Source: an uncultured Eubacterium sp. (GTDB lineage: Bacteria; Bacillota; Clostridia; Oscillospirales; Acutalibacteraceae). Taken from it: 11,405 nucleotides of DNA. The stretch is taken from positions 1-11,405 of the forward strand of contig CAMFPZ010000014.1 of NCBI GenBank assembly GCA_945979635.1, in the 5' to 3' direction. The position numbers and the translations under genes are program-made. A model generated the notes under the pieces. The model did not search any database. It saw only the letters and a program-made list of their open reading frames with translations, and had not been told where the DNA came from. Each line of letters begins with the position of its first letter. Within the stretch, counting starts at the first letter, position 1. Of the stretch, positions 1 through 11,405 are shown piece after piece.

Positions 1-45
1 ACACAAGGAGTATCGTCGGCAGCGTCAGATGTGTATAAGAGACAG
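1..45 (+). other. Residual Illumina Nextera adapter (not genomic)
   Basis: Bases 1-4 (ACAC) match the end of the P5 flow-cell primer. Bases 5-12 (AAGGAGTA) match a standard Nextera i5 index. Bases 13-26 (TCGTCGGCAGCGTC) are the Nextera Read 1 adapter, and bases 27-45 (AGATGTGTATAAGAGACAG) are the Tn5 mosaic end. All four parts lie in the exact order of a library molecule. This is untrimmed library sequence at a contig end, not a transposon of the organism. Genomic sequence starts at 46. Confidence 0.98.
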
Positions 46-46
46 G

Positions 47-172
47 GTTTTATGCCTCGTTTTGGGTGCGTTTGGAATAGCAAATATGTGGCTTGCCGTA
101 TTTGCAGATGTCGGAGTTATGGTGATTGCTGTGCTGAATTCAATTCGTACTTTGAATTCGAAGAAAATTTAA
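47..172 (+). CDS. Heavy-metal P1B-type ATPase, C-terminal end (partial)
   Basis: The open frame runs from the contig edge to TAA at 170-172 and gives about 41 residues. It reads through GAFGIANMWLAVFADVGVM and then AVLNSIRTLNSKKI. The M-W-L-A-V-F-A-D-V-G block followed by AVLN-x-x-R is the typical last transmembrane segment and tail of CadA/ZntA/CopA-like metal-exporting P-type ATPases. The metal cannot be told, because the metal-binding CPx motif, the phosphorylation DKTG and the N-terminal domain all lie upstream of the contig. The 5' part is missing only because the contig ends here, so this is not a pseudogene. I am confident of the family and have no basis for a gene symbol. Confidence 0.85.
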   Translation, partial: VLCLVLGAFGIANMWLAVFADVGVMVIAVLNSIRTLNSKKI

Positions 173-193
173 GAAATATTTTTTTGTAAATGC

Positions 194-222
194 TTGATAA
201 AATAATGACAAGGTATTATTAT
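194..222 (+). promoter_or_regulatory. Sigma-A-type promoter for the AI-2E family gene
   Basis: TTGATA (194-199) and TATTAT (217-222) are separated by exactly 17 bp, about 70 bp before the TTG start at 291. A second TATTAT at 214-219 would give a poor 14-bp spacer. The surrounding 173-290 region is AT-rich and holds nothing else recognisable. Confidence 0.6.
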
Positions 223-290
223 ATAAGTGTCGATTGATTAAATGTTGATGATTTATAAAAGTAATATGGATTTACAAAGGAGATAAAGGA

Positions 291-1460
291 TTGAATAAGG
301 TAGAAAAAAAGCGTGCCTTTCTAATAAATTTTGCCTTTGCGGCATTGATTTTGGCATTAGCGTTCGTATTTTTGAAATACTTTTTTTGGATTACAGCACC
401 GTTTGTACTGTCATTCTTCTTTGCTGTTGTGCTCCAAAAGCCGTTGAGATTTTTGGATAAAAAAACGAAGAATAAGGCTCATTCCTTTTTCTCAATATTG
501 CTCGTAATTCTTTCTATTTGTGTAATAATCGTTCCGGCTTCGTTCATCGTCGCTTCAATTATCGGAAAAATAGGCGAATTTGCAGCTTATCTTATAGACC
601 AGCTTCGCGATGTTTCGACATTTCTTGCTACTATCGAAAATTGGATTTTGGACACGGTTGACTTTTTGCCGAAGCATATTTATGATTCGGTCAGCGTGCA
701 AATAACCGATTGGTTTACTAAACTTCAACCGTCTGCGAACGAGGGTACAGCCGCTTCATCGGCATTGCTTTCTAATATTGATTTTTCGAGTATTACGGAA
801 AAGCTTACCTCCGGTGTTACCGGTGTGTATTCTGCCCTTAAGGGTGTTCCGTCGGTCGTTATCGGCCTTGTTATCGGAGTTGTTGCGTGGATTTTGTTTA
901 CAAAGGATTATGATTATATCGTAGCCTTTATTAAACGCCAGCTCCCTGATGATAAGAAAAATATTCTCGGTGACCTAAAGCATTTATTCTCGAAGACAGT
1001 GCTTACTATGTTTAAGGCATATGGAATTATTATGCTCATAACCTTCAGCGAACTTCTTTTGGGCTTTACTATTCTTCGCACAACGGGAATTATGGTGAAC
1101 AACTATTTTGTTCTCATCGCCGCATTAATCGCAGTATTCGATATATTACCTGTTGCAGGCTCCGGCGGCGTTTTGATTCCGTGGGCGTTGTTTTCGGTCG
1201 TTACCGGAAATATTAAACAGGCTGTCGGCTTAGTCATAATTTATGTTATTATCACGGTTATTCGTCAGTATATAGAGCCAAAGATTGTAGGAGATACTCT
1301 CGGTGTTCATCCGATAGTAACCCTTATGGGATTGTATTTCGGACTGAAGCTGTTCGGATTTATAGGAATGTTCCTCGTTCCGCTGACCATTATGACCCTA
1401 AAGGCATTTAATGATGCCGGTCGTATTAATCTTTGGAAGAACGATGTTGAGAGAAATTGA
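291..1460 (+). CDS. AI-2E family transporter / YtvI-like membrane protein
   Basis: 389 residues, a normal length for the AI-2E/PerM/YtvI superfamily of polytopic membrane proteins. Hydrophobic segments start near residues 10-48 and 68-95, and a cluster fills the C-terminal half. The family signatures are near the C-terminus: LPVAGSGGVLIPW, then IEPKIVG at residues 328-334 with the following GVHPIVTLMGLYFGLKLFG. The start is TTG at 291, set 8 nt after AAAGGAG (276-282). The gene is monocistronic: a promoter lies at 194-222 and a terminator at 1487-1523. Family members have been linked to autoinducer-2 or ion export, and the YtvI branch to sporulation. Which substrate applies here cannot be read from the sequence. 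The general family is sure; the YtvI subfamily is likely from the C-terminal motif. Confidence 0.88.
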   Translation: MNKVEKKRAFLINFAFAALILALAFVFLKYFFWITAPFVLSFFFAVVLQKPLRFLDKKTKNKAHSFFSILLVILSICVIIVPASFIVASIIGKIGEFAAYLIDQLRDVSTFLATIENWILDTVDFLPKHIYDSVSVQITDWFTKLQPSANEGTAASSALLSNIDFSSITEKLTSGVTGVYSALKGVPSVVIGLVIGVVAWILFTKDYDYIVAFIKRQLPDDKKNILGDLKHLFSKTVLTMFKAYGIIMLITFSELLLGFTILRTTGIMVNNYFVLIAALIAVFDILPVAGSGGVLIPWALFSVVTGNIKQAVGLVIIYVIITVIRQYIEPKIVGDTLGVHPIVTLMGLYFGLKLFGFIGMFLVPLTIMTLKAFNDAGRINLWKNDVERN

Positions 1461-1486
1461 TGTATAGTTCTACAAAATATTATGCT

Positions 1487-1523
1487 ATAACGGCTTTGCA
1501 TTTGGTAAAGTCGTTATTTTTTT
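1487..1523 (+). terminator. Rho-independent terminator after the AI-2E family gene
   Basis: An 11-bp stem (1487-1497 with 1507-1517, one G-U pair, 9-nt loop) is followed by a T run ending at 1523. It sits 27 nt after the stop codon at 1460 and just before the next promoter. Confidence 0.88.
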
Positions 1524-1542
1524 GCTTTTTTCGAAATTATGC

Positions 1543-1571
1543 TTGATTATCGTTATTCTTTGTGTTAATAT
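1543..1571 (+). promoter_or_regulatory. Promoter of the ACT-hom-lysC operon
   Basis: TTGATT (1543-1548), a 17-bp spacer, then TAATAT (1566-1571). Transcription would begin near 1578, leaving a leader of about 46 nt before the ATG at 1624. This placement shows that any in-frame start at 1522 lies upstream of the transcript. The leader is too short for a lysine riboswitch or T-box. Confidence 0.7.
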
Positions 1572-1623
1572 AGAAAAGTGTTTTTCACAGCAATACAACT
1601 GTCCGCGGGTGGTGTACACAACA

Positions 1624-2052
1624 ATGGGAAAGATTAATTATCTTTTAGTGGATATGTCGATATTGCCCGATGTGTATACTAGGGTAATAAAGGCTAAGGG
1701 CTATTTGCAGTCGGGCGAGGCATCAAACGCATCGCAGGCGGCAAAGATGGCAGGAATATCCCGTTCGGCATACTATAAATATAAGGACAAAATATTTGAG
1801 TACAGCGAACAGGGCGATGATGCAAGAACAATTAATGCAAAGCTTCGCGACAATGCAGGAGTTTTGAGCTCGGTTATGAACGAGCTTTATATGGCAGGGG
1901 CAAATATCCTTGCGATGAACCAAAGCATTCCTGTAAACGATATTGCTGATGTATCAATAACCGTTAGCTTTTCCGATAAGGAAGTAATAAACGACGGATT
2001 AGAAGAAAAAATAAAGAATATCAGCGGAGTAATTTCGGCTGAAATGGTATAG
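1624..2052 (+). CDS. ACT domain protein, UPF0735/PheB-like
   Basis: 142 residues from ATG at 1624. The family normally starts just before a YYLV/YLLV-x-x-x-ILP segment, and MGKINYLLVDMSILPD fits. Residues about 36-58 (ASQAAKMAGISRSAYYKYKD) form a short helix-turn-helix-like segment characteristic of UPF0735. Residues about 69-142 form an ACT domain (NAGVLSSVMNELYMAGANIL, then a V-S-I-T-V strand). The frame is open back to 1522 and those extra 34 residues mimic a signal peptide, but they overlap the promoter at 1543-1571 and so cannot be translated from it. The ribosome site is weak (GGGTGG at 1607-1612). The next gene's SD overlaps the stop codon, so translation is probably coupled to hom. 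ACT domains usually bind amino acids, so a role as allosteric or transcriptional sensor of Thr, Met or Lys is inference. In Bacillus the relative is PheB, next to pheA. Confidence 0.85.
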   Translation: MGKINYLLVDMSILPDVYTRVIKAKGYLQSGEASNASQAAKMAGISRSAYYKYKDKIFEYSEQGDDARTINAKLRDNAGVLSSVMNELYMAGANILAMNQSIPVNDIADVSITVSFSDKEVINDGLEEKIKNISGVISAEMV

Positions 2053-2062
2053 GAGGAATAAT

Positions 2063-3280
2063 ATGAAGGTTGCAGTGATGGGCTACGGAACAGTAGGCTC
2101 CGGTGTTGTTGAGGTTATCGAAACCCATAATAAGAGCATTGCAAACCGCACCGGCGGCGAGATATTAGAGGTTAGTCATATTCTTGATTTGCGTGATTTT
2201 CCGGGTGATGAGCACGAGGATTTGTTTACAAAGGACTTCAATGATATTTTGAACGACGAGGATGTAATGGTAGTTGCAGAAACAATGGGCGGGGTTAATC
2301 CGGCTTATGATTTCACAATGAAGCTTATTGAGTCGGGAAAGAGCGTAGTGACCTCGAATAAGGAACTCGTTGCTCAAAAGGGATTAGAACTTCTCGAGGC
2401 GGCAGAAAGAAATGGTGTAAACTATCTTTTTGAGGCAAGCGTTGGCGGCGGAATTCCTATTATTCGTCCTATGGCACAATGCCTTAGTGCAAACAATATC
2501 GAGGGCGTTGCAGGCATTCTCAACGGTACAACAAACTTTATTCTTACAAAAATGATTGAGGACGGTATGACCTTTGAGGAGGCACTTAAGCTTGCTCAGG
2601 ATAATGGCTATGCCGAAAAAGACCCGACTGCCGACATTGAGGGATTTGATGCTTGCCGTAAGGTTTGCATTCTTGCTTCTCTTGCGTTCGGAAAGCATGT
2701 TTATCCTAATCAGGTTCGTGCAGAGGGTATTACAAAAATCACTTTAGAGGATGTTTCTTATGTTTCCTCGGCTAATGGCGTAATCAAGCTTTTGGGCCAA
2801 ATAAAGAAGATTGATGATGATTCTATTGCTGCATTCGTAAGTCCCGCCATTGTTTTTAATGGTTCACAGCTTGCGAGTGTAAATGGTGTATTTAATGCTA
2901 TTCTTGTTCGCGGCGACGCCGTTGGAGATGTTTGCTTCTATGGTCCCGGTGCAGGAAAGCTTCCTACAGCCTCTGCGGTTGTTGCCGATATGGTTGATTG
3001 TGCTGTTCATGTTGACAGAAGAAAAACCTTTGGTTGGGGCGAGGGTGCAGAGGATTATGTTGTTGACGAAAAGACAGTGCTTAAAATGCCGTTTTATGTT
3101 CGTGCAAAGGCAGGCTGCGGCGAGATTATGGCACGATTCAATGATGTAAAATTCCTGAATCGTAAGGGACAGCCTTCTGATGAGGTTGCCTTCATAACCG
3201 ACAGTATGACAGAGAATGAGCTTACATCAAAGCTTGAGAATATGGATGTTATCAATATAATCAAGGTAACAGATTATTAA
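2063..3280 (+). CDS. hom: Homoserine dehydrogenase
   Basis: 405 residues. It catalyses NAD(P)H-dependent reduction of aspartate semialdehyde to homoserine, the branch point to Thr and Met, in the cytoplasm. The N-terminal Rossmann motif GYGTVGSG is at residues 7-14. TSNKELVA carries Lys100 and the GYAEKDPTADIEGFDACRK block ends with Lys200; these two lysines match the conserved catalytic pair of the family. GGGIPII (128-134) and LNGTTNFILTKM (153-164) are also present, as is GPGAGKLPTASAVV near 294-307. Residues about 340-405 form the regulatory ACT domain expected in feedback-inhibited enzymes, slightly short compared with the roughly 430-residue norm. The start is fixed by AGGAGG (2051-2056), which overlaps the stop codon of the ACT gene, 6 nt before the ATG. 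It is followed 26 nt later by lysC, the first enzyme of the same pathway. Confidence 0.97.
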   Translation: MKVAVMGYGTVGSGVVEVIETHNKSIANRTGGEILEVSHILDLRDFPGDEHEDLFTKDFNDILNDEDVMVVAETMGGVNPAYDFTMKLIESGKSVVTSNKELVAQKGLELLEAAERNGVNYLFEASVGGGIPIIRPMAQCLSANNIEGVAGILNGTTNFILTKMIEDGMTFEEALKLAQDNGYAEKDPTADIEGFDACRKVCILASLAFGKHVYPNQVRAEGITKITLEDVSYVSSANGVIKLLGQIKKIDDDSIAAFVSPAIVFNGSQLASVNGVFNAILVRGDAVGDVCFYGPGAGKLPTASAVVADMVDCAVHVDRRKTFGWGEGAEDYVVDEKTVLKMPFYVRAKAGCGEIMARFNDVKFLNRKGQPSDEVAFITDSMTENELTSKLENMDVINIIKVTDY

Positions 3281-3306
3281 TATAAACAATACTTAAGGAG
3301 GAAATT

Positions 3307-4515
3307 ATGGCACTTATAGTACAAAAATTCGGTGGCTCATCTGTTGCAAATGCCGAGCGAGTAATGAATGTTGCGAGAATTGTAACAGAGACCTATAAGC
3401 AGGGCAATGATGTTGTGGTTGTTGTTTCTGCACAGGGCGATACAACTGATGACCTTATTGCAAAGGCACAGGAGATTAACCCGACAGCAAAGAATAGAGA
3501 AATGGATCAGCTTCTTGCGGCAGGCGAGCAAATTTCAATCTCACTTCTTGCTATGGCTATTGAATCTCTCGGATTTCCTGTTATCAGCCTTTTGGGTTGG
3601 CAGGCAGGATTTAATACAAATTCTGTTTACAGTGCTGCAAGAATCAAGAATATCAAGCCTAACCGACTTCAGGCAGAGCTTGCAAGACATAATATTTGTG
3701 TTGTTGCCGGCTTTCAGGGTATTAATCGTTATGACGACCTTACCACTCTGGGCAGAGGCGGCTCCGATACTTCTGCAGTTGCTATTGCGGCAGCTTTACA
3801 CGCTGATAAATGCCAAATTTTTACAGACGTTGAGGGCGTATATACAGCCGATCCAAGAAAGGTCGAGAACGCTCGTAAGCTTAAGGAAATAACCTATGAT
3901 GAGATGCTTGAGCTTGCTACTCTCGGAGCACAGGTGCTCAATAACCGTTCGGTAGAAATGGCAAAAAAATATTCAGTAGAGCTTGAGGTTCTTTCATCAC
4001 TTAACCCGATTCCGGGTACAATCGTTAAGGAGGTAGCAAAAATGGAAAAAATGTTAATTAGAGGCGTAACAAAGGATACAGATGTGGCTCTCGTTTCAGT
4101 CCTCGGAGTAAAGGATAATCCGGGTGTTGCGTTCAATATATTCTCGAAGCTTTCACAGAGAAATATCAATGTTGATATTATTCTTCAGTCATTCGGCAGA
4201 GACGGCACAAAGGATATTGTATTCACAGTAAACAAGGATAACGGACCAAAGGCTGTTGAGCTTTTGAGCGAATCCTCACATCTTCAGGATGCAAGAATTG
4301 TTTGCGATACCTCTGTTGCAAAGGTTTCTATCGTAGGTGCAGGTATGGAATCTCATCCCGGTACGGCAACCTCTATGTTCGAGGCTCTTTATGAAAGAAA
4401 TATCAATATTAAGATGATTTCTACATCTGAAATTAAGATTTCTGTTATCATCGACGCAGAGGACGCTGACATAGCCGTCAGTGCAGTACACAACAAGTTT
4501 ATCCCGAACGACTGA
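3307..4515 (+). CDS. lysC: Aspartate kinase (aspartokinase II type)
   Basis: 402 residues. It phosphorylates aspartate with ATP, the committed step to Lys, Thr and Met. The kinase domain (1-240) has KFGGSSV (7-13), GRGGSDTSAVA (149-159) and FTDVEGVYTADPR (172-184). Two ACT domains follow (about 260-335 and 340-400), including the FSKLSQRNINVDIILQS and FEALYERNINIKMISTS helices typical of the lysine/threonine-sensing monofunctional enzyme. The start is supported by AAGGAGG (3295-3301), 5 nt upstream of ATG. An internal SD and ATG at codon 246 probably produce a second, 157-residue beta polypeptide (see separate entry), as in Bacillus subtilis LysC. The gene is last in the operon and a terminator follows at 4541-4594. 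The upstream gap is too short for an L-box riboswitch, so control is probably allosteric. Confidence 0.97.
   Translation: MALIVQKFGGSSVANAERVMNVARIVTETYKQGNDVVVVVSAQGDTTDDLIAKAQEINPTAKNREMDQLLAAGEQISISLLAMAIESLGFPVISLLGWQAGFNTNSVYSAARIKNIKPNRLQAELARHNICVVAGFQGINRYDDLTTLGRGGSDTSAVAIAAALHADKCQIFTDVEGVYTADPRKVENARKLKEITYDEMLELATLGAQVLNNRSVEMAKKYSVELEVLSSLNPIPGTIVKEVAKMEKMLIRGVTKDTDVALVSVLGVKDNPGVAFNIFSKLSQRNINVDIILQSFGRDGTKDIVFTVNKDNGPKAVELLSESSHLQDARIVCDTSVAKVSIVGAGMESHPGTATSMFEALYERNINIKMISTSEIKISVIIDAEDADIAVSAVHNKFIPND
4027..4044 (+). promoter_or_regulatory. Internal RBS and in-frame start for the LysC beta subunit
   Basis: AAGGAGG (4027-4033) lies 8 nt before ATG (4042-4044) inside lysC, in the same frame at codon 246. 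Translation from here to the stop at 4515 gives a 157-residue protein made only of the two ACT domains. B. subtilis aspartokinase II is an alpha2beta2 enzyme whose beta chain comes from an in-frame start at the equivalent codon. The match in position and the perfect SD make this more than chance, although a Lys-Glu-Val coding run (GTTAAGGAGGTA) also yields the SD. Confidence 0.75.
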
Positions 4516-4540
4516 TTTTCTGCATAATTTTAATATCCAA

Positions 4541-4594
4541 AATGACCGTATAGACATTGTCGAATTCTCGACTTTGCGATACGGTCGTTTTTTT
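4541..4594 (+). terminator. Two-part rho-independent terminator after lysC
   Basis: An outer 11-bp stem (AATGACCGTAT, 4541-4551, with ATACGGTCGTT, 4579-4589, one G-U) encloses an inner hairpin (GTCGA 4559-4563 with TCGAC 4568-4572, loop ATTC). A T run extends to 4594. This is larger than a usual terminator, and it ends the ACT-hom-lysC operon. Confidence 0.85.
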
Positions 4595-4620
4595 ATGATA
4601 CAATGTATTTTGTTTTTCTA

Positions 4621-4649
4621 TTGACTTTTTTATCGTTTTATGGTATTGT
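4621..4649 (+). promoter_or_regulatory. Promoter of the TetR-envelope-ABC operon
   Basis: TTGACT (4621-4626), a 17-bp spacer, then TATTGT (4644-4649). The expected transcript start is near 4656, inside the palindrome at 4649-4678. No terminator is visible until 9732-9759, so this promoter probably serves the whole 5-kb gene set. Confidence 0.72.
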
Positions 4650-4678
4650 GTAACAAAGGATATATAACGAGTGTTACA
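4649..4678 (+). promoter_or_regulatory. Palindrome over the promoter: likely TetR operator
   Basis: TGTAACA (4649-4655) and TGTTACA (4672-4678) are perfect inverted repeats separated by 16 bp. An inner TATATA (4661-4666) shares the same centre of symmetry. The left arm touches the last base of the -10 box and the palindrome covers the predicted transcript start, 33 bp before the TetR start codon. This is the usual geometry for autorepression by a TetR dimer or dimer pair. Binding is inferred, not shown. Confidence 0.62.
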
Positions 4679-4711
4679 TATCAAGTGATTTTTAAAGAAG
4701 GAAGTGATTGC

Positions 4712-5311
4712 TTGCCGCCGAAAGCGAAATTTACAAGAGAAGAAATTATTGCTGCTGCTTTGGAGGTTGCACGAGAAAAGGGAATAGGAGCAATAACGGC
4801 TCGTGAGGTCGGACGATATCTGGGTACCTCGTCATCGCCTGTATTTGTTGCATTTAACAATATGGATGAGCTTGTCGAGTGTGTTCACAATGCGGCTGTG
4901 GAGGAATATAGTAATTATATAGCCGATGCCGTTAATTTTACTCCTGCATTTAAGCAGTTCGGATTTCGTATGATTGAATATGCAAGGCAACAACCGAATT
5001 TGTTTATGTCCGTTTGTATTATGAGCAATCCCGAACGGGATTATGAAACGATGTTAATGAATATGCCTAAAGCTGATTTTTGTGTTAAAACAATAATGCA
5101 GCAGACAGGCTATGATGAAGAAAAATCAAAAATGATATTTAAGCAGGTGCTTCTCACAGGACTCGGAATTGCCTTTATGGTATCGTCAAAAATGTGTTCG
5201 TTCAGCGATGACGATTTGAATGTATATCTCGGAATGGCATATCAGGGAACAATACTTGCAATAAATAATCTTCAAAAGGAAGCATATTCCGTACTTCCGC
5301 ATAAAAAATAA
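4712..5311 (+). CDS. TetR/AcrR family transcriptional regulator
   Basis: 199 residues from TTG at 4712, which lies 7 nt after AAGGAAG (4698-4704). The protein opens with MPPKAKFTREEIIAAALEVA, the usual beginning of this regulator group. An in-frame ATG at 4640 was rejected because it precedes the -10 box. The N-terminal DNA-binding domain covers residues 1-50, with the helix-turn-helix at about 28-47 (ITAREVGRYLGTSSSPVFVAF). The remaining 150 residues form the variable ligand/dimer domain and give no clue to the inducer. Being the first gene of the operon, behind a palindrome that overlaps its promoter, it most likely represses itself and the envelope and ABC genes downstream until a membrane-active ligand is bound. 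The family is sure; the targets are inferred. Confidence 0.93.
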   Translation: MPPKAKFTREEIIAAALEVAREKGIGAITAREVGRYLGTSSSPVFVAFNNMDELVECVHNAAVEEYSNYIADAVNFTPAFKQFGFRMIEYARQQPNLFMSVCIMSNPERDYETMLMNMPKADFCVKTIMQQTGYDEEKSKMIFKQVLLTGLGIAFMVSSKMCSFSDDDLNVYLGMAYQGTILAINNLQKEAYSVLPHKK

Positions 5312-5333
5312 TCAATAGAAAAAGGTGAAAATT

Positions 5334-6023
5334 ATGAAAAAAACAAAGGGTATTTTATGGGGGCTTGCAGTAATCGCTCTCGGTATTATTTGGGGATTGA
5401 ACCAAGGTGGTCTGATTAATGTTCGTCTCTTTGACGGTTGGTGGACCTTGTTCATTATAGTGCCGTCATTCATTTCTCTCATTACAGACAAGGATAAAAC
5501 AGGAAGCTTAATCGGGCTTTGTATTGGTCTGGTGCTTCTGGCAGGAAACTATTTCGATATTTGGAATTACAGGGAATACCTTCTTCCTTTAGTAGTAATT
5601 ATTATCGGTGTTGTAATAATTTTTAATACAGTTAATACAAAGAAAATTAAAAATGATAATTCCGAATTTGTTATGAATGAAACGCAGGTACCTGTTTCTG
5701 AAACCGGTCAGGAATATTATGCAAGCTTTACCGGTCAGACCTATCAGTTTAATAACGGCTTTGCCGGAGGAAAATTCAGTGCATCATTCGGTGCATTGAA
5801 GCTTGATATTCGTAACGCAGATATTGTTGATAACTGCGTAGTAAATACATCAGCCACCTTCGGAGGAGTTGAGATTCTTGTGCCGCAGAATGTAAAAGTA
5901 ATCGCAAAATCAAATTCGGTTTTCGGGGGAACATCCGATAAGTCGAATAAGAGCCTTCCTGCTGATGCAAAAACAATTTATATAAACTCAACTAATCTAT
6001 TCGGAGGAACCGATATAAAATGA
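5334..6023 (+). CDS. LiaF-like four-TM membrane protein
   Basis: 229 residues. Four hydrophobic segments sit at about residues 6-26, 36-51, 57-74 and 82-100, arranged as two hairpins like the LiaI/LiaF N-terminal domain. A linker follows, then a beta-rich C-terminal domain (145-229) with the repeated F-G-G/FG motifs FGALKLDIR, FGGVEILVPQNVKVIAKS, VFGGTSDKS and LFGGTD that mark LiaF-like 'cell wall-active antibiotic response' domains. The ATG at 5334 is preferred over an in-frame GTG at 5325, because that GTG is part of the AAAGGTG ribosome site (5320-5326). In Bacillus, LiaF holds the LiaS kinase inactive until the envelope is stressed. Here there is no adjacent two-component system and a TetR gene is upstream instead. 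The stop codon overlaps the next ATG (ATGA), so the two are translationally coupled. Confidence 0.8.
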   Translation: MKKTKGILWGLAVIALGIIWGLNQGGLINVRLFDGWWTLFIIVPSFISLITDKDKTGSLIGLCIGLVLLAGNYFDIWNYREYLLPLVVIIIGVVIIFNTVNTKKIKNDNSEFVMNETQVPVSETGQEYYASFTGQTYQFNNGFAGGKFSASFGALKLDIRNADIVDNCVVNTSATFGGVEILVPQNVKVIAKSNSVFGGTSDKSNKSLPADAKTIYINSTNLFGGTDIK

Positions 6024-6835
6024 ACAATAAATTAGCAAAGGGCATTAATATTGTTGCAAAAGTATTTGCTGTTTTGCTGATAGTCTCGATAATCAGCGGA
6101 ATTGTTGAAGCATGCTTCGGTATTGGCAAAAGCCTTTTCGATAAAAAAGAAAAGCCGAAAACCTCTGCTTCTCAACAGCTTTCAGGCAGCTCGCAGGTTG
6201 ATGATGATGCAAAGCTTGTGCTTGATTTAATAGCAACAGAGGTTAAAATAACGCTCGGTGATGCATTTTCATACAATACCGATAATGAATATATCCGAGT
6301 AAAGAATAATAATAACAGCATTGAAATTATTGAAAACGAGCATAGAACAACAGATATTACACATCTTAATATTGTGCTCCCGAAGGATATTGTGTTCGCA
6401 TCATTTAATTTAGATGCAGGTGCAGGAAATATCAGTATTGAAGGACTGAAATGCCGAAATGCAGATATTGACCTCGGTGCAGGAAATGTCGTAATAGACG
6501 ATGTTGAGATTTCGGCAAATGCCGATATTGACGCAGGTGCAGGCGACTTCACCATAAGAAACGGATTACTGAATAATCTCGATTTTGATATGGGAATGGG
6601 TGAAGCTGAAATAAATGCTGTTCTTTTTGGTAATTCGTCGCTTGACTGCGGAGTAGGAAATCTTACTCTGAATGTAAATGCTCCGTTCGATGATTATACT
6701 ATTAATGTTGAAAAAGGAATTGGCACTGTAAGCATAAATGATCAAAGACTAACCGCAGACAGTATGCTCGGTAACGGTAGCAACAGAATTGAAATCAGCG
6801 GCGGATTGGGTAATATAACGGCTACATTTGGATAA
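6020..6835 (+). CDS. Membrane-anchored DUF4097-like beta-repeat protein
   Basis: 271 residues with one N-terminal membrane segment (about 11-36), a basic/Ser-rich linker (41-60) and an outside domain. Residues 131-220 contain four and a half repeats of 19-20 residues, each starting with a hydrophobic-D-x-G-x-G motif: LDAGAGNISI, IDLGAGNVVI, IDAGAGDFTI, FDMGMGEAEI and LDCGVGNLTL. Similar GIGTVSI and GLGNITATF turns follow near 233 and 262. This is the pattern of DUF4097/adhesin-like beta-solenoid proteins. The ATG overlaps the LiaF-like stop codon by 4 nt (ATGA), pointing to a coupled pair that may interact. The N-terminus has no lipobox, so it is probably an uncleaved anchor. Function is unknown; an envelope-stress sensing or scaffolding part is inference from the neighbours. 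Confidence 0.75.
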   Translation: MNNKLAKGINIVAKVFAVLLIVSIISGIVEACFGIGKSLFDKKEKPKTSASQQLSGSSQVDDDAKLVLDLIATEVKITLGDAFSYNTDNEYIRVKNNNNSIEIIENEHRTTDITHLNIVLPKDIVFASFNLDAGAGNISIEGLKCRNADIDLGAGNVVIDDVEISANADIDAGAGDFTIRNGLLNNLDFDMGMGEAEINAVLFGNSSLDCGVGNLTLNVNAPFDDYTINVEKGIGTVSINDQRLTADSMLGNGSNRIEISGGLGNITATFG

Positions 6836-6869
6836 ACAAAATTATTATATGAAGAGGAAATTATAGATT

Positions 6870-7109
6870 ATGGATAAGAAATTATATAAATCAACAGTCG
6901 ACAAGAAGCTCTGCGGAGTATGCGGAGGGCTTGCAAAGTATTTGAACATTGATTCAACTATTATTCGCTTAATTTGGGCTCTTGTCGTATTATGCGGCGG
7001 TGCCGGAATTGTTGCATATATCGTATGTGCATTGGTTATTCCTGAGGAACCTGTGCAAAACACATATGAGGACCCTTATTATGCTCCGACTAATATCAGC
7101 GAGGATTAA
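6870..7109 (+). CDS. PspC domain protein
   Basis: 79 residues, the normal size for a stand-alone PspC domain. The opening KLYKSTVDKKLCGVCGGLAKYLNIDSTIIRLIW is the classic PspC helix pair, and one membrane segment follows (about residues 32-56, ALVVLCGGAGIVAYIVCALVIPEEP). The short acidic tail is variable. A GAGGAAA site at 6854-6860, 9 nt ahead of ATG, supports the start. PspC proteins sense or relay damage to the inner membrane; in Gram-positives they are often encoded beside LiaF-like and DUF4097 proteins, as here. The stop at 7107-7109 lies 3 nt before the ABC ATPase ATG, whose ribosome site (GAGGA, 7101-7105) is inside this gene. The two are therefore likely coupled. Confidence 0.9.
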   Translation: MDKKLYKSTVDKKLCGVCGGLAKYLNIDSTIIRLIWALVVLCGGAGIVAYIVCALVIPEEPVQNTYEDPYYAPTNISED

Positions 7110-7112
7110 TAA

Positions 7113-7826
7113 ATGTTAAGAATTGACAATTTAACGAAGCGTTATGGCGAAAAGGTTGCTGTGAATAATCTTTCGCTACATATCGCTCCGGGCGAAATAT
7201 ATGGCTTTATCGGACATAATGGTGCCGGAAAGACCAGTACATTGAAATGCATAGTGGGTATTCAGAGCTTTGATGAGGGCGAAATTTATATTAATTCAAG
7301 CTCTATTAAGACTAATCCTATTGAATGCAAGTCACAGATTGCGTATATTCCGGATAATCCCGATATTTACGATTTTATGACAGGAATGCAATATCTAAAT
7401 TTTGTTGCCGATATATTTAAGGTTAGCGAAGATGAGAGAAGAACCCTGATAAAAAAATATGCCGATATGCTCGAAATAGCGGATAATCTCGGCGAAGCCA
7501 TTAGCACTTATTCGCACGGAATGAAGCAAAAGCTTGTGATTATTTCCGCACTTCTTCATTCTCCAAAATTGATTATTATGGATGAGCCCTTTGTTGGTCT
7601 TGACCCAAAGGCTACTCATTTGCTTAAGGAAATTATGCGAGAAATCTGCAATAACGAAGGTGCGATTTTCTTTTCGACTCATGTACTTGAGGTTGCAGAA
7701 AAGCTATGCGACAGAGTTGCAATAATTAAAAATGGAAATCTTGTTATGTCCGGAACTGTCGAGGAGGTTAAGGGCGACAACTCGCTTGAGGATGTATTTC
7801 TTGAGCTGGAGGACGAAAATGCTTAA
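7113..7826 (+). CDS. ABC transporter ATP-binding protein
   Basis: 237 residues, one nucleotide-binding domain. Walker A is GHNGAGKT (34-41), the signature is SHGMKQK (134-140), Walker B is LIIMDEP (153-159) and the D-loop GLD is at 162-164. The switch His is His190 in STHVLEVAE. The position where many ABC proteins have the Q-loop Gln reads YIPDNPD, so Asp stands there; E or D is common in this exporter subgroup. The sequence is of the CcmA/EcsA-like exporter type and pairs with the membrane protein next to it. That gene's ATG (7819) lies 8 nt inside this frame and has GGAGG at 7808-7812. The partner is broken by the tandem duplication, so the complex may be non-functional in this genome as assembled. 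The substrate is unknown. Confidence 0.93.
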   Translation: MLRIDNLTKRYGEKVAVNNLSLHIAPGEIYGFIGHNGAGKTSTLKCIVGIQSFDEGEIYINSSSIKTNPIECKSQIAYIPDNPDIYDFMTGMQYLNFVADIFKVSEDERRTLIKKYADMLEIADNLGEAISTYSHGMKQKLVIISALLHSPKLIIMDEPFVGLDPKATHLLKEIMREICNNEGAIFFSTHVLEVAEKLCDRVAIIKNGNLVMSGTVEEVKGDNSLEDVFLELEDENA

Positions 7827-8472
7827 GGTATTATTAAAAAAGCAGCTTTTGGAATTGAACAGGGGTTTTCTTCAAAACAAAAAAACCGGTGAACTCCGTT
7901 CAAAGAAATCAACCATCGTTATGGTGCTGAGCTTTCTTGTTTTGTTCGGTATGATTTCATTTGCATTTGTCGGAATAGGCTCGCTTTTGATAGATTCGTT
8001 CCATCTCGTTGATATGGACTGGATGTACTTTTTTATGATGTTTTCCATGGCGATTATGCTGGGTGCATTCGGTAGCGTTTTTAATACCTATGCGAGCCTC
8101 TATAAGGCAGGAGATAACGATTTGCTTTTCTCTATGCCGATTAGTGCCTATACAATAATTTTGGCTAGGCTTCTGAGCGTATATTTGTTGGGATTGTTGT
8201 ATTCGTTGATTGTTGAAATACCGACGCTCATCGTGTATTGGGTGAAGGTTGGGGCGACCTTTTTGACGGCGTTGGGACAGGTGCTTTGTGTTGGGATAAT
8301 CAGCCTTTTTGTGCTTGCAATCAGTGTTGCCCTGGGTTATATTGTGGCTGTCGTTTCGTCAAAAATTCACAGCAAAACCTTTGTTTCGGTATTATGCACA
8401 TTGTTGTTTTTGTTCGTGTATTATTTCGCTTATTTCAAAATGAATGAGTGCCTATACAATAATTTTGGCTAG
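7819..8472 (+). CDS. ABC exporter permease, N-terminal part (frameshifted by duplication)
   Basis: Start ATG at 7819 has GGAGG 6 nt upstream and overlaps the ATPase gene. The frame gives 217 residues with hydrophobic segments near 31-58, 66-91, 117-143, 155-180 and 187-207, and the conserved NDLLFSMPIS segment (100-109) seen in putative ABC-exporter membrane proteins (PF16949-like, usually about 530-550 residues). After residue 210 (KMNE) the frame enters the second copy of a 304-bp repeat in the wrong frame. It ends in CLYNNFG at TAG 8470-8472. Skipping one repeat copy joins this part to the downstream frame and gives a continuous 533-residue protein. It is therefore one broken gene, or an assembly error, rather than a natural short protein. 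Confidence 0.85.
   Translation: MLKVLLKKQLLELNRGFLQNKKTGELRSKKSTIVMVLSFLVLFGMISFAFVGIGSLLIDSFHLVDMDWMYFFMMFSMAIMLGAFGSVFNTYASLYKAGDNDLLFSMPISAYTIILARLLSVYLLGLLYSLIVEIPTLIVYWVKVGATFLTALGQVLCVGIISLFVLAISVALGYIVAVVSSKIHSKTFVSVLCTLLFLFVYYFAYFKMNECLYNNFG
8143..8446 (+). repeat. 304-bp direct tandem repeat, copy 1
   Basis: It is identical to 8447-8750 over all 304 bases, by direct reading. Two further matching bases (AG) at the junction make the boundary ambiguous by 2 bp. The unit lies inside the ABC permease gene and codes for about 101 residues. Since 304 is not a multiple of three, the duplication shifts the frame. Confidence 0.97.
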
Positions 8473-9724
8473 GCTTCTGAGCGTATATTTGTTGGGATTG
8501 TTGTATTCGTTGATTGTTGAAATACCGACGCTCATCGTGTATTGGGTGAAGGTTGGGGCGACCTTTTTGACGGCGTTGGGACAGGTGCTTTGTGTTGGGA
8601 TAATCAGCCTTTTTGTGCTTGCAATCAGTGTTGCCCTGGGTTATATTGTGGCTGTCGTTTCGTCAAAAATTCACAGCAAAACCTTTGTTTCGGTATTATG
8701 CACATTGTTGTTTTTGTTCGTGTATTATTTCGCTTATTTCAAAATGAATGAGCTAATAAGAAGAGTTGCCGAAAATGCCGAGCATTACGGAGAAAAATTC
8801 CGGTCGTCAACCTTCTTTTTGTATCATCTGGCATATGGTGCACAAGGAGATATAAAGTCTGTACTGATTGCCCTTGCAATTACATTAGCATTGCTTTTTA
8901 TTATTATTCTTGTGCTTCGAAGAAGCTTCTTCAAAATTGCAACAAAGACCGAAAAAAGTAAGCATAAAAAAGGCAGAACTACGATAAAAACATCTTCCTT
9001 GAAATCTGCTTTGCTCAAAAAGGAGCTGAAGCGTTTTGCTACCAGCACAAATTATATGATGAATTGCGGACTCGGATTAATCATTATGCCTGTGCTTGCA
9101 GTTTTTGCGTTAATTAAGGCGGATGCAATGAATGAGCTTTTGGGAGGTATGCTGGCAGATTTAGGCATTTTTGCAAATGCATTCCCGCTTATTCCTGCTT
9201 GCAGTATTTGTGCAATATGCTCTTTGAATGCGATTTCGGCTCCATCCGTTTCGTTGGAAGGAAAAAGCATTTGGGTGCTTCAATCCCTTCCTGTTGAAGA
9301 AAAATTGATTATTGAGGCAAAGGTGAATGCTCATGTTTTGCTTAACTCAATTCCTGCTGTAATCAGCACAGTGTTGCTCGGAATAGCATTTAGACTTGAT
9401 GTTGTAGGTATTGTACTGTCGTGCTGTGTTGTATGGATGTTCATTTGGTTCGATGCAAGATTTGGATTGGTTGAAAATTTGAAGCACTGCAATCTTGTTT
9501 GGACCTCCGAGGTTGTTCCTGTCAAGCAGGGCTTGAGTGTTTTTTTGAGCTTGTTAGTTGGCTTTGCTGTCACAATGATAATGCTCGGAGCCTCAATATT
9601 CGTTTGCGAATATGTTTCGATGTATGTCTATATGGTAATTCTTGTGGCAGTATTAATGATTTTTAATCTTGCCGAGCAAAGATGGCTTAACAATAAGGGC
9701 TCAAAAATCTTCAAAACATTATAA
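8444..9724 (+). CDS. ABC exporter permease, C-terminal part (duplicated start)
   Basis: 426 residues from ATG 8444, which exists only because the repeat junction makes AATGAGT. No Shine-Dalgarno is seen upstream. Residues 2-103 repeat residues 109-210 of the N-terminal part exactly; the rest (104-426) is the true second half of the permease. It includes a basic linker (KKGRTTIKTSSLKSALLKKE) and about six further hydrophobic segments. The end at TAA 9722-9724 is followed 7 nt later by the operon terminator. Translation of this piece alone is doubtful. With one repeat copy removed it fuses in frame to the part starting at 7819, giving 533 residues. Confidence 0.8.
   Translation: MSAYTIILARLLSVYLLGLLYSLIVEIPTLIVYWVKVGATFLTALGQVLCVGIISLFVLAISVALGYIVAVVSSKIHSKTFVSVLCTLLFLFVYYFAYFKMNELIRRVAENAEHYGEKFRSSTFFLYHLAYGAQGDIKSVLIALAITLALLFIIILVLRRSFFKIATKTEKSKHKKGRTTIKTSSLKSALLKKELKRFATSTNYMMNCGLGLIIMPVLAVFALIKADAMNELLGGMLADLGIFANAFPLIPACSICAICSLNAISAPSVSLEGKSIWVLQSLPVEEKLIIEAKVNAHVLLNSIPAVISTVLLGIAFRLDVVGIVLSCCVVWMFIWFDARFGLVENLKHCNLVWTSEVVPVKQGLSVFLSLLVGFAVTMIMLGASIFVCEYVSMYVYMVILVAVLMIFNLAEQRWLNNKGSKIFKTL
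8447..8750 (+). repeat. 304-bp direct tandem repeat, copy 2
   Basis: This is the exact second copy of 8143-8446, directly adjacent to it. It has no inverted ends, no transposase and no target-site signature, so it is a plain duplication and not an insertion sequence. Downstream of it the original reading frame continues from ELIRRVAEN. Confidence 0.97.
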
Positions 9725-9731
9725 CTTTTTT

Positions 9732-9759
9732 GGACTGCGGGTAACCACAGTCCTTTTTT
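9732..9759 (+). terminator. Rho-independent terminator of the TetR-ABC operon
   Basis: GGACTG (9732-9737) pairs with CAGTCC (9748-9753); after a C-A mismatch, GG pairs with CC across a GTAA tetraloop. Six T residues follow (9754-9759). It lies 7 nt after the permease stop codon. Confidence 0.85.
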
Positions 9760-9771
9760 ACAAAATAATAA

Positions 9772-9800
9772 TTGACTTTGCACTGACGATAATATATAAT
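9772..9800 (+). promoter_or_regulatory. Strong promoter of greA-lysS
   Basis: TTGACT (9772-9777), exactly 17 bp, then the consensus TATAAT (9795-9800). This is the best promoter in the window. The transcript would start near 9807, giving a leader of about 34 nt before greA. Confidence 0.88.
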
Positions 9801-9840
9801 TATTAAGTTAAATTGTATAATTTTGAAAAGGAGTTTTAAT

Positions 9841-10302
9841 ATGGCAGCTAAAACATTTACAATGACTGCGGCAGGTAAGGCTGAATTAGAGGCAGAGCTT
9901 GAACAGTTAAAGACCGAAGGCAGAATTGATATTGCAGAAAAATTGAAGGTTGCTCGTTCATACGGTGACCTTAGTGAAAACAGTGAATACGATGAAGCAA
10001 AGTCGGAGCAGGCAAAAATTGAGGCTCGTATTCAAGAACTCGAATATCAGCTCGAGAACGCTGTAATCATCGACTCCGTTGCAGGTGACCACGTTTCTAT
10101 GGGTTCAAAGGTTACTGTTGTTCGCGACGGAAAAGAATATGTTTATGAAATAGTTGGCTTCTCACAGAGTGACCCGTCAAATGGAAAAATTTCTGACGAA
10201 AGTCCTGTCGGTAAGGCTCTTATGGGTGCCACAATCGGCGAGAAGGTTACTGTTGAAGCACCTATCGGTACGCTCGAATTTGAAATTAAGTCAATAGACT
10301 AA
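9841..10302 (+). CDS. greA: Transcription elongation factor GreA
   Basis: 153 residues, close to the usual 158. GreA enters the RNA polymerase secondary channel and stimulates cleavage of backtracked transcripts. The N-terminal coiled coil spans residues 8-75. Its tip has [17 protein letters not shown], with the acidic pair Asp43 and Glu46 that coordinates the cleavage metal. The C-terminal FKBP-like domain (80-153) has [31 protein letters not shown] and the usual EFEIKSI end. The ATG at 9841 is chosen because AAAAGGAG (9827-9834) is 6 nt ahead; an in-frame TTG at 9823 would lack a ribosome site. It is followed 22 nt later by lysS, an arrangement common in Clostridia, and transcribed from the strong promoter at 9772. 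Confidence 0.97.
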
Positions 10303-10324
10303 TAACAGCAGAGGTAAAAGTATT

Positions 10325-11405
10325 ATGGCAGGAAAGTTTGAAATCACTAAAAAGGGTGATGGTACTTTCACATTTGAATTATTGATAGACGACATAAGCG
10401 TTGGCTCATCCCCTGTATTCGAAAAGGAGGATGCCTGCAAGCGTGGCGTTAAGGCAGTAAAGAAGAATTCCCGTATGAAGGTCCAAAATAATATTGCCGG
10501 AGACGAGGAAAAAACGAATCCAAAGTATGTTGTTGAGGCTGATGGCGAAAAGGTTAGCTATACACTTTATTTGCAGACAGGAGATGTTGCTTTTAGCGGC
10601 AAGGCAGAATCCGAGTCGGATGCTCTTGAGATAATCGAAAAAATCGGCAACAACGCAAATGCTGCCCAAATGACAATGGCAGAAGTTGTTTTGAGCGAAA
10701 ATGAGCAAAAGCAGATTAGAATTAATAAGCTTTCACAGCTCCAAAAGGACGGCAAGGACCCATTTGAGATTACAATCGCGAGCCAAACTCATCATTCCGA
10801 CGAAATCAAGGCTGATTTTGACAATCTTGAAAATAAGGAAGTTACTATTGCCGGCAGAATTATGACCTGGCGTGATATGGGTAAAGCAAACTTTATTGAT
10901 ATTCAGGACAGAAACGGCAGAATTCAGGCATATGTAAGAATGAATGATGTCGGTGAGGAGGCATTCGCAGAATTCAAGGGCTGGGATATCGGAGATATTG
11001 TTGAGGTAACCGGCTTTGTATTTAAGACCAGAACGGGCGAAATTTCCGTTCACGCACAGAAGATTAGATTGCTTTCAAAGTCGCTTCTTCCATTGCCTGA
11101 AAAATTCCACGGTCTTACCGACACTGATACAAGATACCGCAGAAGATATCTTGATATGATTATGAATCCTGATGTAAAGGATACATTTATCAAGCGTTCA
11201 AGGATTATTTCATCTATTCGTCATTATCTTGATAATCTCGGATTTGTTGAGGTTGAGACTCCTATTCTTAATACTATTGCAGGCGGTGCGGCAGCAAGAC
11301 CGTTCATCACTCACCATAACACTCTTGATATGGATATGTATCTTCGTATTGCAACCGAGCTTTATCTTAAGCGTCTTATTGTAGGCGGTATGGAAAGAGT
11401 GTATG
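10325..11405 (+). CDS. lysS: Lysyl-tRNA synthetase with N-terminal DUF1508-like repeats (3' partial)
   Basis: The frame is open from ATG 10325 to the window end (360 residues, no stop). Residues 116-360 are a normal class II LysRS. They contain the opening [19 protein letters not shown] (118-136), the anticodon-binding OB fold about 172-250 ([20 protein letters not shown], then [13 protein letters not shown]), [11 protein letters not shown] (269-279), and motif 1 with its extension ([20 protein letters not shown] and ETPIL). Motif 2 follows beyond the window. Residues 1-112 are extra. [17 protein letters not shown] followed by the [12 protein letters not shown] helix, and a second similar block at 66-112, resemble two DUF1508/YegP repeats. 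AGAGG at 10310-10314 supports the upstream start, while the internal ATGs at 10670 and 10676 have no ribosome site, so a real fusion is favoured. The enzyme charges tRNA-Lys with lysine. Identification of LysRS is sure; the DUF1508 call is tentative. Confidence 0.92.

Follow-up and report, generated by a model that had tools for sequence, protein, structure and literature searches.

Why would a bacterial lysyl-tRNA synthetase (LysRS) gene, lysS, begin about 115 codons before the place at which LysRS normally starts, and what would the additional residues do? The question is raised by contig CAMFPZ010000014.1 of an uncultured Eubacterium sp. (GenBank assembly GCA_945979635.1), of which positions 1 to 11,405 (the window, meaning the whole stretch of DNA that was analysed) end inside such a gene. 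The original prediction, made from the letters alone, placed an in-frame fusion of DUF1508/YegP-like repeats to LysRS here, and the early start is borne out: from the ATG at 10325 the frame is open for 360 codons up to the contig end, without a stop, and the NCBIfam LysRS models start at residue 126, giving an extra N-terminal part of about 118-125 residues. Here, we show that this extension is homologous to YegP and lies in one frame with LysRS, in one clade, where it is conserved.

Results

Residues 1-115 do resemble DUF1508. PF07411 matches the extension at residues 25-49 (E 2.1e-4, 21.5 bits with the extension alone as query; 18.1 bits with the whole frame), with either query below Pfam's curated cut-off of 22 bits, which is a search threshold and not a biological feature. 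That cut-off is passed by four of five fused proteins scanned (P0244 31.1, P0249 26.2, P0250 27.1 and L133 27.1 bits) and missed by the fused L104 (15.4 bits) and L038 and L039 (12.4 bits). Escherichia coli YegP (2k8e) aligns with both of its repeats (E 0.0017), and the model predicts the tandem strand-strand-strand-helix-strand fold of YegP, with a fold alignment over residues 1-118. The window's domain is a divergent DUF1508 relative, assigned by homology and fold and not by the Pfam cut-off; its name, as first given, agrees with both the profile match and the YegP fold. Both of the predicted blocks are present, whereas the helix motif C-x-x-G-x-x-x-V-K-K-N that had been ascribed to each of them is found in repeat 1 (C38-x-x-G41-x-x-x-V45-K-K-N48) and not in repeat 2, which is predicted to fold alike but no longer has the C and G of the motif and, searched alone, gives no PF07411 match. 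The fused gene and its surroundings are laid out as follows.

9841..10302, + strand: greA (transcription elongation factor GreA, named by eye), directly upstream; open reading frame 9823-10302 with an ATG at 9841
10310..10315, + strand: Shine-Dalgarno-like AGAGGT of the fused gene, nine bases 5' of ATG 10325, from the sequence and from a Shine-Dalgarno-like 4-mer in 63 of 68 fused genes
10325..10489, + strand: DUF1508 repeat 1, residues 1-55 (PF07411, YegP alignment, model)
10427..10480, + strand: basic helix in repeat 1 plus the residues that follow directly (35-52), invariant at R40, K43, K46, K47 and K52 (model helix 35-48)
10490..10678, + strand: DUF1508 repeat 2, residues 56-118, holding the internal ATGs at 10670 and 10676 (model, second repeat of YegP, fold alignment 1-118)
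10679..11404, + strand: LysRS body, truncated at the contig end and spanning residues 119-360 of about 611 (match to NF001756 and TIGR00499 starting at residue 126)
10841..11074, + strand: OB-fold anticodon-binding domain, residues 173-250 (PF01336, E 4.3e-19)
11123..11404, + strand: start of the class II catalytic core, residues 267-360 (PF00152, E 7.3e-29)

The window's frame thus holds both parts of a bacterial class II LysRS, the OB-fold anticodon domain and the class II core. Cut by the contig end, it scores 310.8 bits against the TIGR00499 cut-off of 427.6, which full-length relatives pass (L104 675.5, L042 679.9, P0244 671); full-length fused relatives have 610-611 residues.

Whether the fusion is an artefact, be it of a missed stop or frameshift or of translation that actually starts at the internal ATGs, has to be asked of a source bin that is fragmented (211 contigs, 73.8% complete), of a contig with adapter-like sequence at its start and of a gene in which residue 116 is so often ATG. 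A missed stop or frameshift is excluded because 69 other genomes of the genus show the same open frame. Of the 71 genus genomes that bear the extension, 70 have it on one contig with LysRS, with overlapping coordinates and in one open frame; in the remaining one (G030) the contig end truncates the frame. Among 68 fused genes (67 named loci and the window), a Shine-Dalgarno-like 4-mer stands before the upstream ATG in 63 and before the internal site at residue 118 in none, as expected from the earlier claim that a ribosome site accompanies the upstream ATG and is lacking at the internal ones. The same claim's reading of ATG 10670 as a relic start is rejected: the codon, that of residue 116, is ATG in 67/68 genes and ATC in 1/68, sits in the last strand of repeat 2 (model strand 115-117) and aligns with I/V of stand-alone DUF1508 proteins. 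The codon of residue 118 (10676) is ATG in 46/68. The extension has a median ratio of nonsynonymous to synonymous substitution rates (dN/dS) of 0.111, compared with 0.093 in the OB domain and 0.048 in the catalytic part (326/2278 pairs with a mean core proportion of synonymous differences, pS, < 0.60; saturated values excluded), and the extension is under purifying selection at the protein level. Profile, fold, conservation, selection and ribosome-site evidence agree on an in-frame fusion, which is confirmed as real and conserved, and an artefact is scarcely credible.

The extension was matched in 37 of 60 genomes (the window's own and 59 relatives): 32/37 of the genus and 5/23 from other families of the order, the latter five being stand-alone frames of 125-155 residues at 28-32% identity. 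A scan of 80 genus genomes found LysRS in 73, the extension in 71 and neither in seven; the two with LysRS and no extension (G454, G464) both start at a contig edge inside the gene. LysRS gave one match per genome, with the exception of G436 (two different pieces), and no class I LysRS was found in 12/12 genomes; the fused enzyme is the sole LysRS found in these genomes. In a family sample of 398 genomes, 54 matched, with fused frames in five of 135 genera (g1, g197, g229, g231, g242), one more g231 match (G790) cut by a contig edge and the remaining matches stand-alone or weak. Fusions were seen in an order sample (394 genomes, 68 matching) only in four genomes, all of the window's genus, and in a phylum sample (378 genomes, 9 matching) in the window alone; these three sets being samples, fusions in other groups are possible.

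In the protein database, 811 of 987 candidates match residues 1-118 at E <= 0.01, and PF01336 is annotated in 119 of the best 120 of these 811. With a divergent fusion as query, 349 candidates yielded 11 proteins, each 607-618 residues long, 8 of which are annotated with PF07411, PF01336 and PF00152 together. Fused loci include the cultured Eubacterium coprostanoligenes ATCC 51222 (L104; NCBI family Eubacteriaceae). The group is presumably the one that GTDB names Eubacterium_R, in Acutalibacteraceae. Stand-alone DUF1508/YegP proteins are common (at least 8000 candidates matched). Further domain context for DUF1508 comes from three short proteins (P0121, P0126, P0132) that are co-annotated with PF13620, two of them also with PF13715.

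The fused domains differ from stand-alone ones in helix 1 of the first repeat. The alignment held 120 distinct fused and 137 distinct stand-alone sequences, with identical extensions, matches below 95 residues and listed fused proteins below 380 amino acids excluded from the 120. Positions 39, 40, 43, 46, 47 and 50 are K/R in 120/120 fused sequences, with R40, K43, K46, K47 and K52 invariant; stand-alone sequences have two basic residues at the six sites in 100 cases, three in 28, one in six and four in three. Columns fixed in fused and rare in stand-alone sequences include R40 (usually N) and K43 (usually E), and R40, K43, K46, K47, R50 and K52 are kept in 11 fused sequences down to 35% identity. 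On a helical wheel the six sites fall within 20-140 degrees, on one side and away from the V/C/G/A face. Helix 2 of the fused domains is acidic, without its C and G, and mean helix-face charges are +6.0 (helix 1) and -2.8 (helix 2) in fused domains versus +1.2 and +0.4 in stand-alone ones.

Of 67 named fused loci, 66 have greA immediately upstream of lysS, and the remaining one leaves no room; where the extension is lacking, the count is 131 of 141 loci (eight not seen, two without room), with some genes counted twice in this set. The domain therefore most likely entered at the start of lysS within a pre-existing greA-lysS pair. In a tree of 49 DUF1508 domains, the 24 fused and the 25 stand-alone ones form separate groups (99/95; seen in 98% of bootstrap trees), with two long rows, L133 and L154; L021, L077, L310, L175, most genus rows and short matches were left out. 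In a quick tree of LysRS bodies (159 rows, of which 16 genus rows were chosen by hand, including those with a C-terminal domain), one group of 22 with support 97 holds all but one of the 22 fused rows, its other member being the unfused, long-branched G610. The remaining fused row, G498 (Clostridium sp. CAG:217; fused lysS at L105:4001-5923:+), stands far from the others and looks mosaic: its residues 1-120 resemble the genus, 121-280 are mixed, and from about 281 it is nearer another LysRS clade. Its contig carries, read by eye, hom, lysC, greA and lysS, as the window does, and the mosaic may stem from recombination within lysS or from a chimeric assembly (one genome of its genus was sampled). 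A single vertical history of the fusion in LysRS mostly holds.

Of the stand-alone tandem DUF1508 proteins, those nearest in sequence to the fused ones (E 1e-19 to 1e-22) are L176-L179, from genus g207 of the same family; they start with MAGKFEIK, as fused proteins do, and are possibly a picture of the gene before fusion.

A second module occurs at the other end of LysRS in this family. In L038:3747-6017:+ and L039:1752-4049:-, LysRS carries an EMAPII/Trbp-type tRNA_bind domain at its C-terminus (a Pfam match to PF01588) in addition to the N-terminal DUF1508, and mutual replacement of the two modules as a rule is thereby rejected. Neither the window's frame nor its extension matches PF01588 up to E 10. 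The C-terminal domain was also found in at least 20 unfused family loci, 19 by a profile from L038 and L039 and one by its linker, among an unfused set that comprises most of the matches listed. Truncated frames L102, L105, L137, L046 and L155 have linkers that seemingly lead to such a domain. It needs 18 changes on the 159-row LysRS tree: gain or loss of this domain is frequent in the family. Counts with, without and undetermined are 2/65/7 for fused and 20/113/4 for unfused loci (Fisher p 0.008, with the 11 undetermined omitted, identical cores counted once and relatedness ignored; nothing is concluded from this table).

Two other observations concern the assembly of the window. A 309-base tandem repeat (8140-8448 and 8444-8752, 99.7% identical) lies inside an ABC-permease-like gene and breaks it into two overlapping frames; it is likely an assembly error, because L041, the sole related locus found, has a single copy. 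Positions 13-45, at the contig start, are library adapter retained in the assembly, presumably of the Nextera transposase, and encode SSAASDVYKRQ, which we take to be a well-known artefact peptide.

Discussion

With our confidence evenly balanced, we read this gene as the cell's LysRS with an N-terminal tandem DUF1508 domain that helps to grip tRNA. After fusion, repeat 1 would have become a polyanion-binding face, its exposed helix now being uniformly basic; placed just ahead of the N-terminal helices and of the OB-fold anticodon domain, it would touch the bound tRNA along its backbone, and the contact may raise tRNA affinity or the rate of capture. Eukaryotic LysRS reaches the same effect by other means, with a basic N-terminal helix. 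We infer the RNA binding, the effect on charging and the geometry of the domain; the signs of tRNA binding, a basic helix face and the point of attachment, are indirect. The tRNA or nucleic-acid binding suggested in the original prediction is plausible and takes a more definite form here.

The solved LysRS 6chd_A, which we take to be the human enzyme, aligns with its residue 70 at query residue 122, so by this alignment the human tRNA-binding N-terminal domain appears to be joined at the point where DUF1508 is. The spacing of human K23, R24, K27, K30 and K31 is that of K39, R40, K43, K46 and K47 here. Nine positions of the human domain, including these five, are reported to be more important for tRNA binding, K23A or K27A raising the dissociation constant from 10 to 304 or 60 uM (PMC6213541), and in the human LysRS-tRNA complex all basic residues of the N-terminal helix face the tRNA (PMC11878792). 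By analogy, we take the two basic helices as the same physical solution, independently reached.

Several points weigh against a role in gripping tRNA. The six basic positions were picked after inspection of the alignment, so that the contrast with stand-alone domains is descriptive, and the stand-alone rows come mostly from one search around one query. Position 50 falls just after the modelled helix 35-48, and the median net charge of the complete extension is -4, helix 2 being acidic. Fairly basic helices are also seen in two stand-alone proteins of the same family, L176 and L178. Such a spacing and period is shared by any basic-faced helix, and the full-length model (mean pLDDT, the predicted local distance difference test, 68.8) does not fix the placement of the domain on LysRS. 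Finally, an added domain of tRNA-binding type need not aid charging: Entamoeba LysRS can do without its EMAPII-like domain in this reaction (PMC3226552).

Among other roles, a protein-protein module survives best, although we consider it unlikely: basic helix 1 and acidic helix 2 would pair between subunits or with a partner, and LysRS would oligomerise or dock, for instance on another synthetase or the ribosome. The exposed helix faces of fused domains are indeed oppositely charged (+6.0 versus -2.8), and appended domains of synthetases often serve assembly (PMC7373986), but the basic helix is more invariant than the acidic one, whose residues vary, and no partner is known. Quite improbable is a regulatory or sensing module that, by binding a small anion, a nucleotide or the mRNA that encodes it, adjusts how active or abundant LysRS is under stress; Rfam gave nothing in the window at gathering scores, with no detailed search made for a ligand pocket or RNA element, and no YegP function was found in the literature looked at. 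A passenger fused by chance and retained as a partnerless tag for solubility or stability would suit an extension that evolves faster than the LysRS body and without which the rest of the family lives, but purifying selection and several invariant surface residues over five genera make it very improbable.

A wider and more doubtful reading is that the tandem DUF1508 is an RNA/tRNA-binding accessory domain, unrecognised so far, that was recruited once by LysRS in gut Clostridia as a bacterial counterpart of the eukaryotic LysRS N-terminal extension; stand-alone YegP-type proteins may then bind tRNA or other structured RNA. DUF1508/YegP is common and has solved structures, and the titles, abstract beginnings and passages that we consulted on DUF1508, YegP/UPF0339 and HVO_2922 gave no function and no LysRS fusion. 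A conserved fusion to an enzyme of exactly known task, in a cultured species, connects DUF1508 with tRNA charging, so that kinetics, binding and structure can directly address what the domain does.

Synthetases are known to carry appended domains (PMC11286949, PMC7373986, PMC13215547), among which DUF1508 on LysRS appears new: no DUF1508-LysRS fusion was found in what we consulted on LysRS fusions and appended domains or on E. coprostanoligenes, and it would add a type of appended domain to bacterial LysRS. Compared with the YegP/UPF0339/DUF1508 proteins (PF07411; E. coli YegP 2k8e, Shewanella oneidensis SO3888 2k49), the domain is here fused to LysRS, with an all-basic helix 1 face and a helix 2 without C and G. 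Compared with bacterial class II LysRS (TIGR00499, NF001756), the body is complete over the curated cut-offs in L104, L042 and P0244, and the usual frame of about 500 residues in the rest of the family is exceeded by 118-125 N-terminal residues. The eukaryotic N-terminal domain (PMC6213541, PMC11878792) has the same attachment point and basic-face spacing, but in the human enzyme a disordered segment becomes a long helix, whereas here a YegP-type domain is predicted to be folded; the likeness is one of analogy, not homology, and the extension, which is not a member of the disordered lysine-rich eukaryotic class, may work like it. LysRS with a C-terminal EMAPII/Trbp tRNA_bind domain (PF01588; family members and Entamoeba, PMC3226552), an OB-fold type for which binding of the tRNA 3' end is reported (PMC11286949), likewise carries an extra module, of another fold and at the opposite end of the protein from DUF1508, and the LysRS of this one family has gained modules at both ends.
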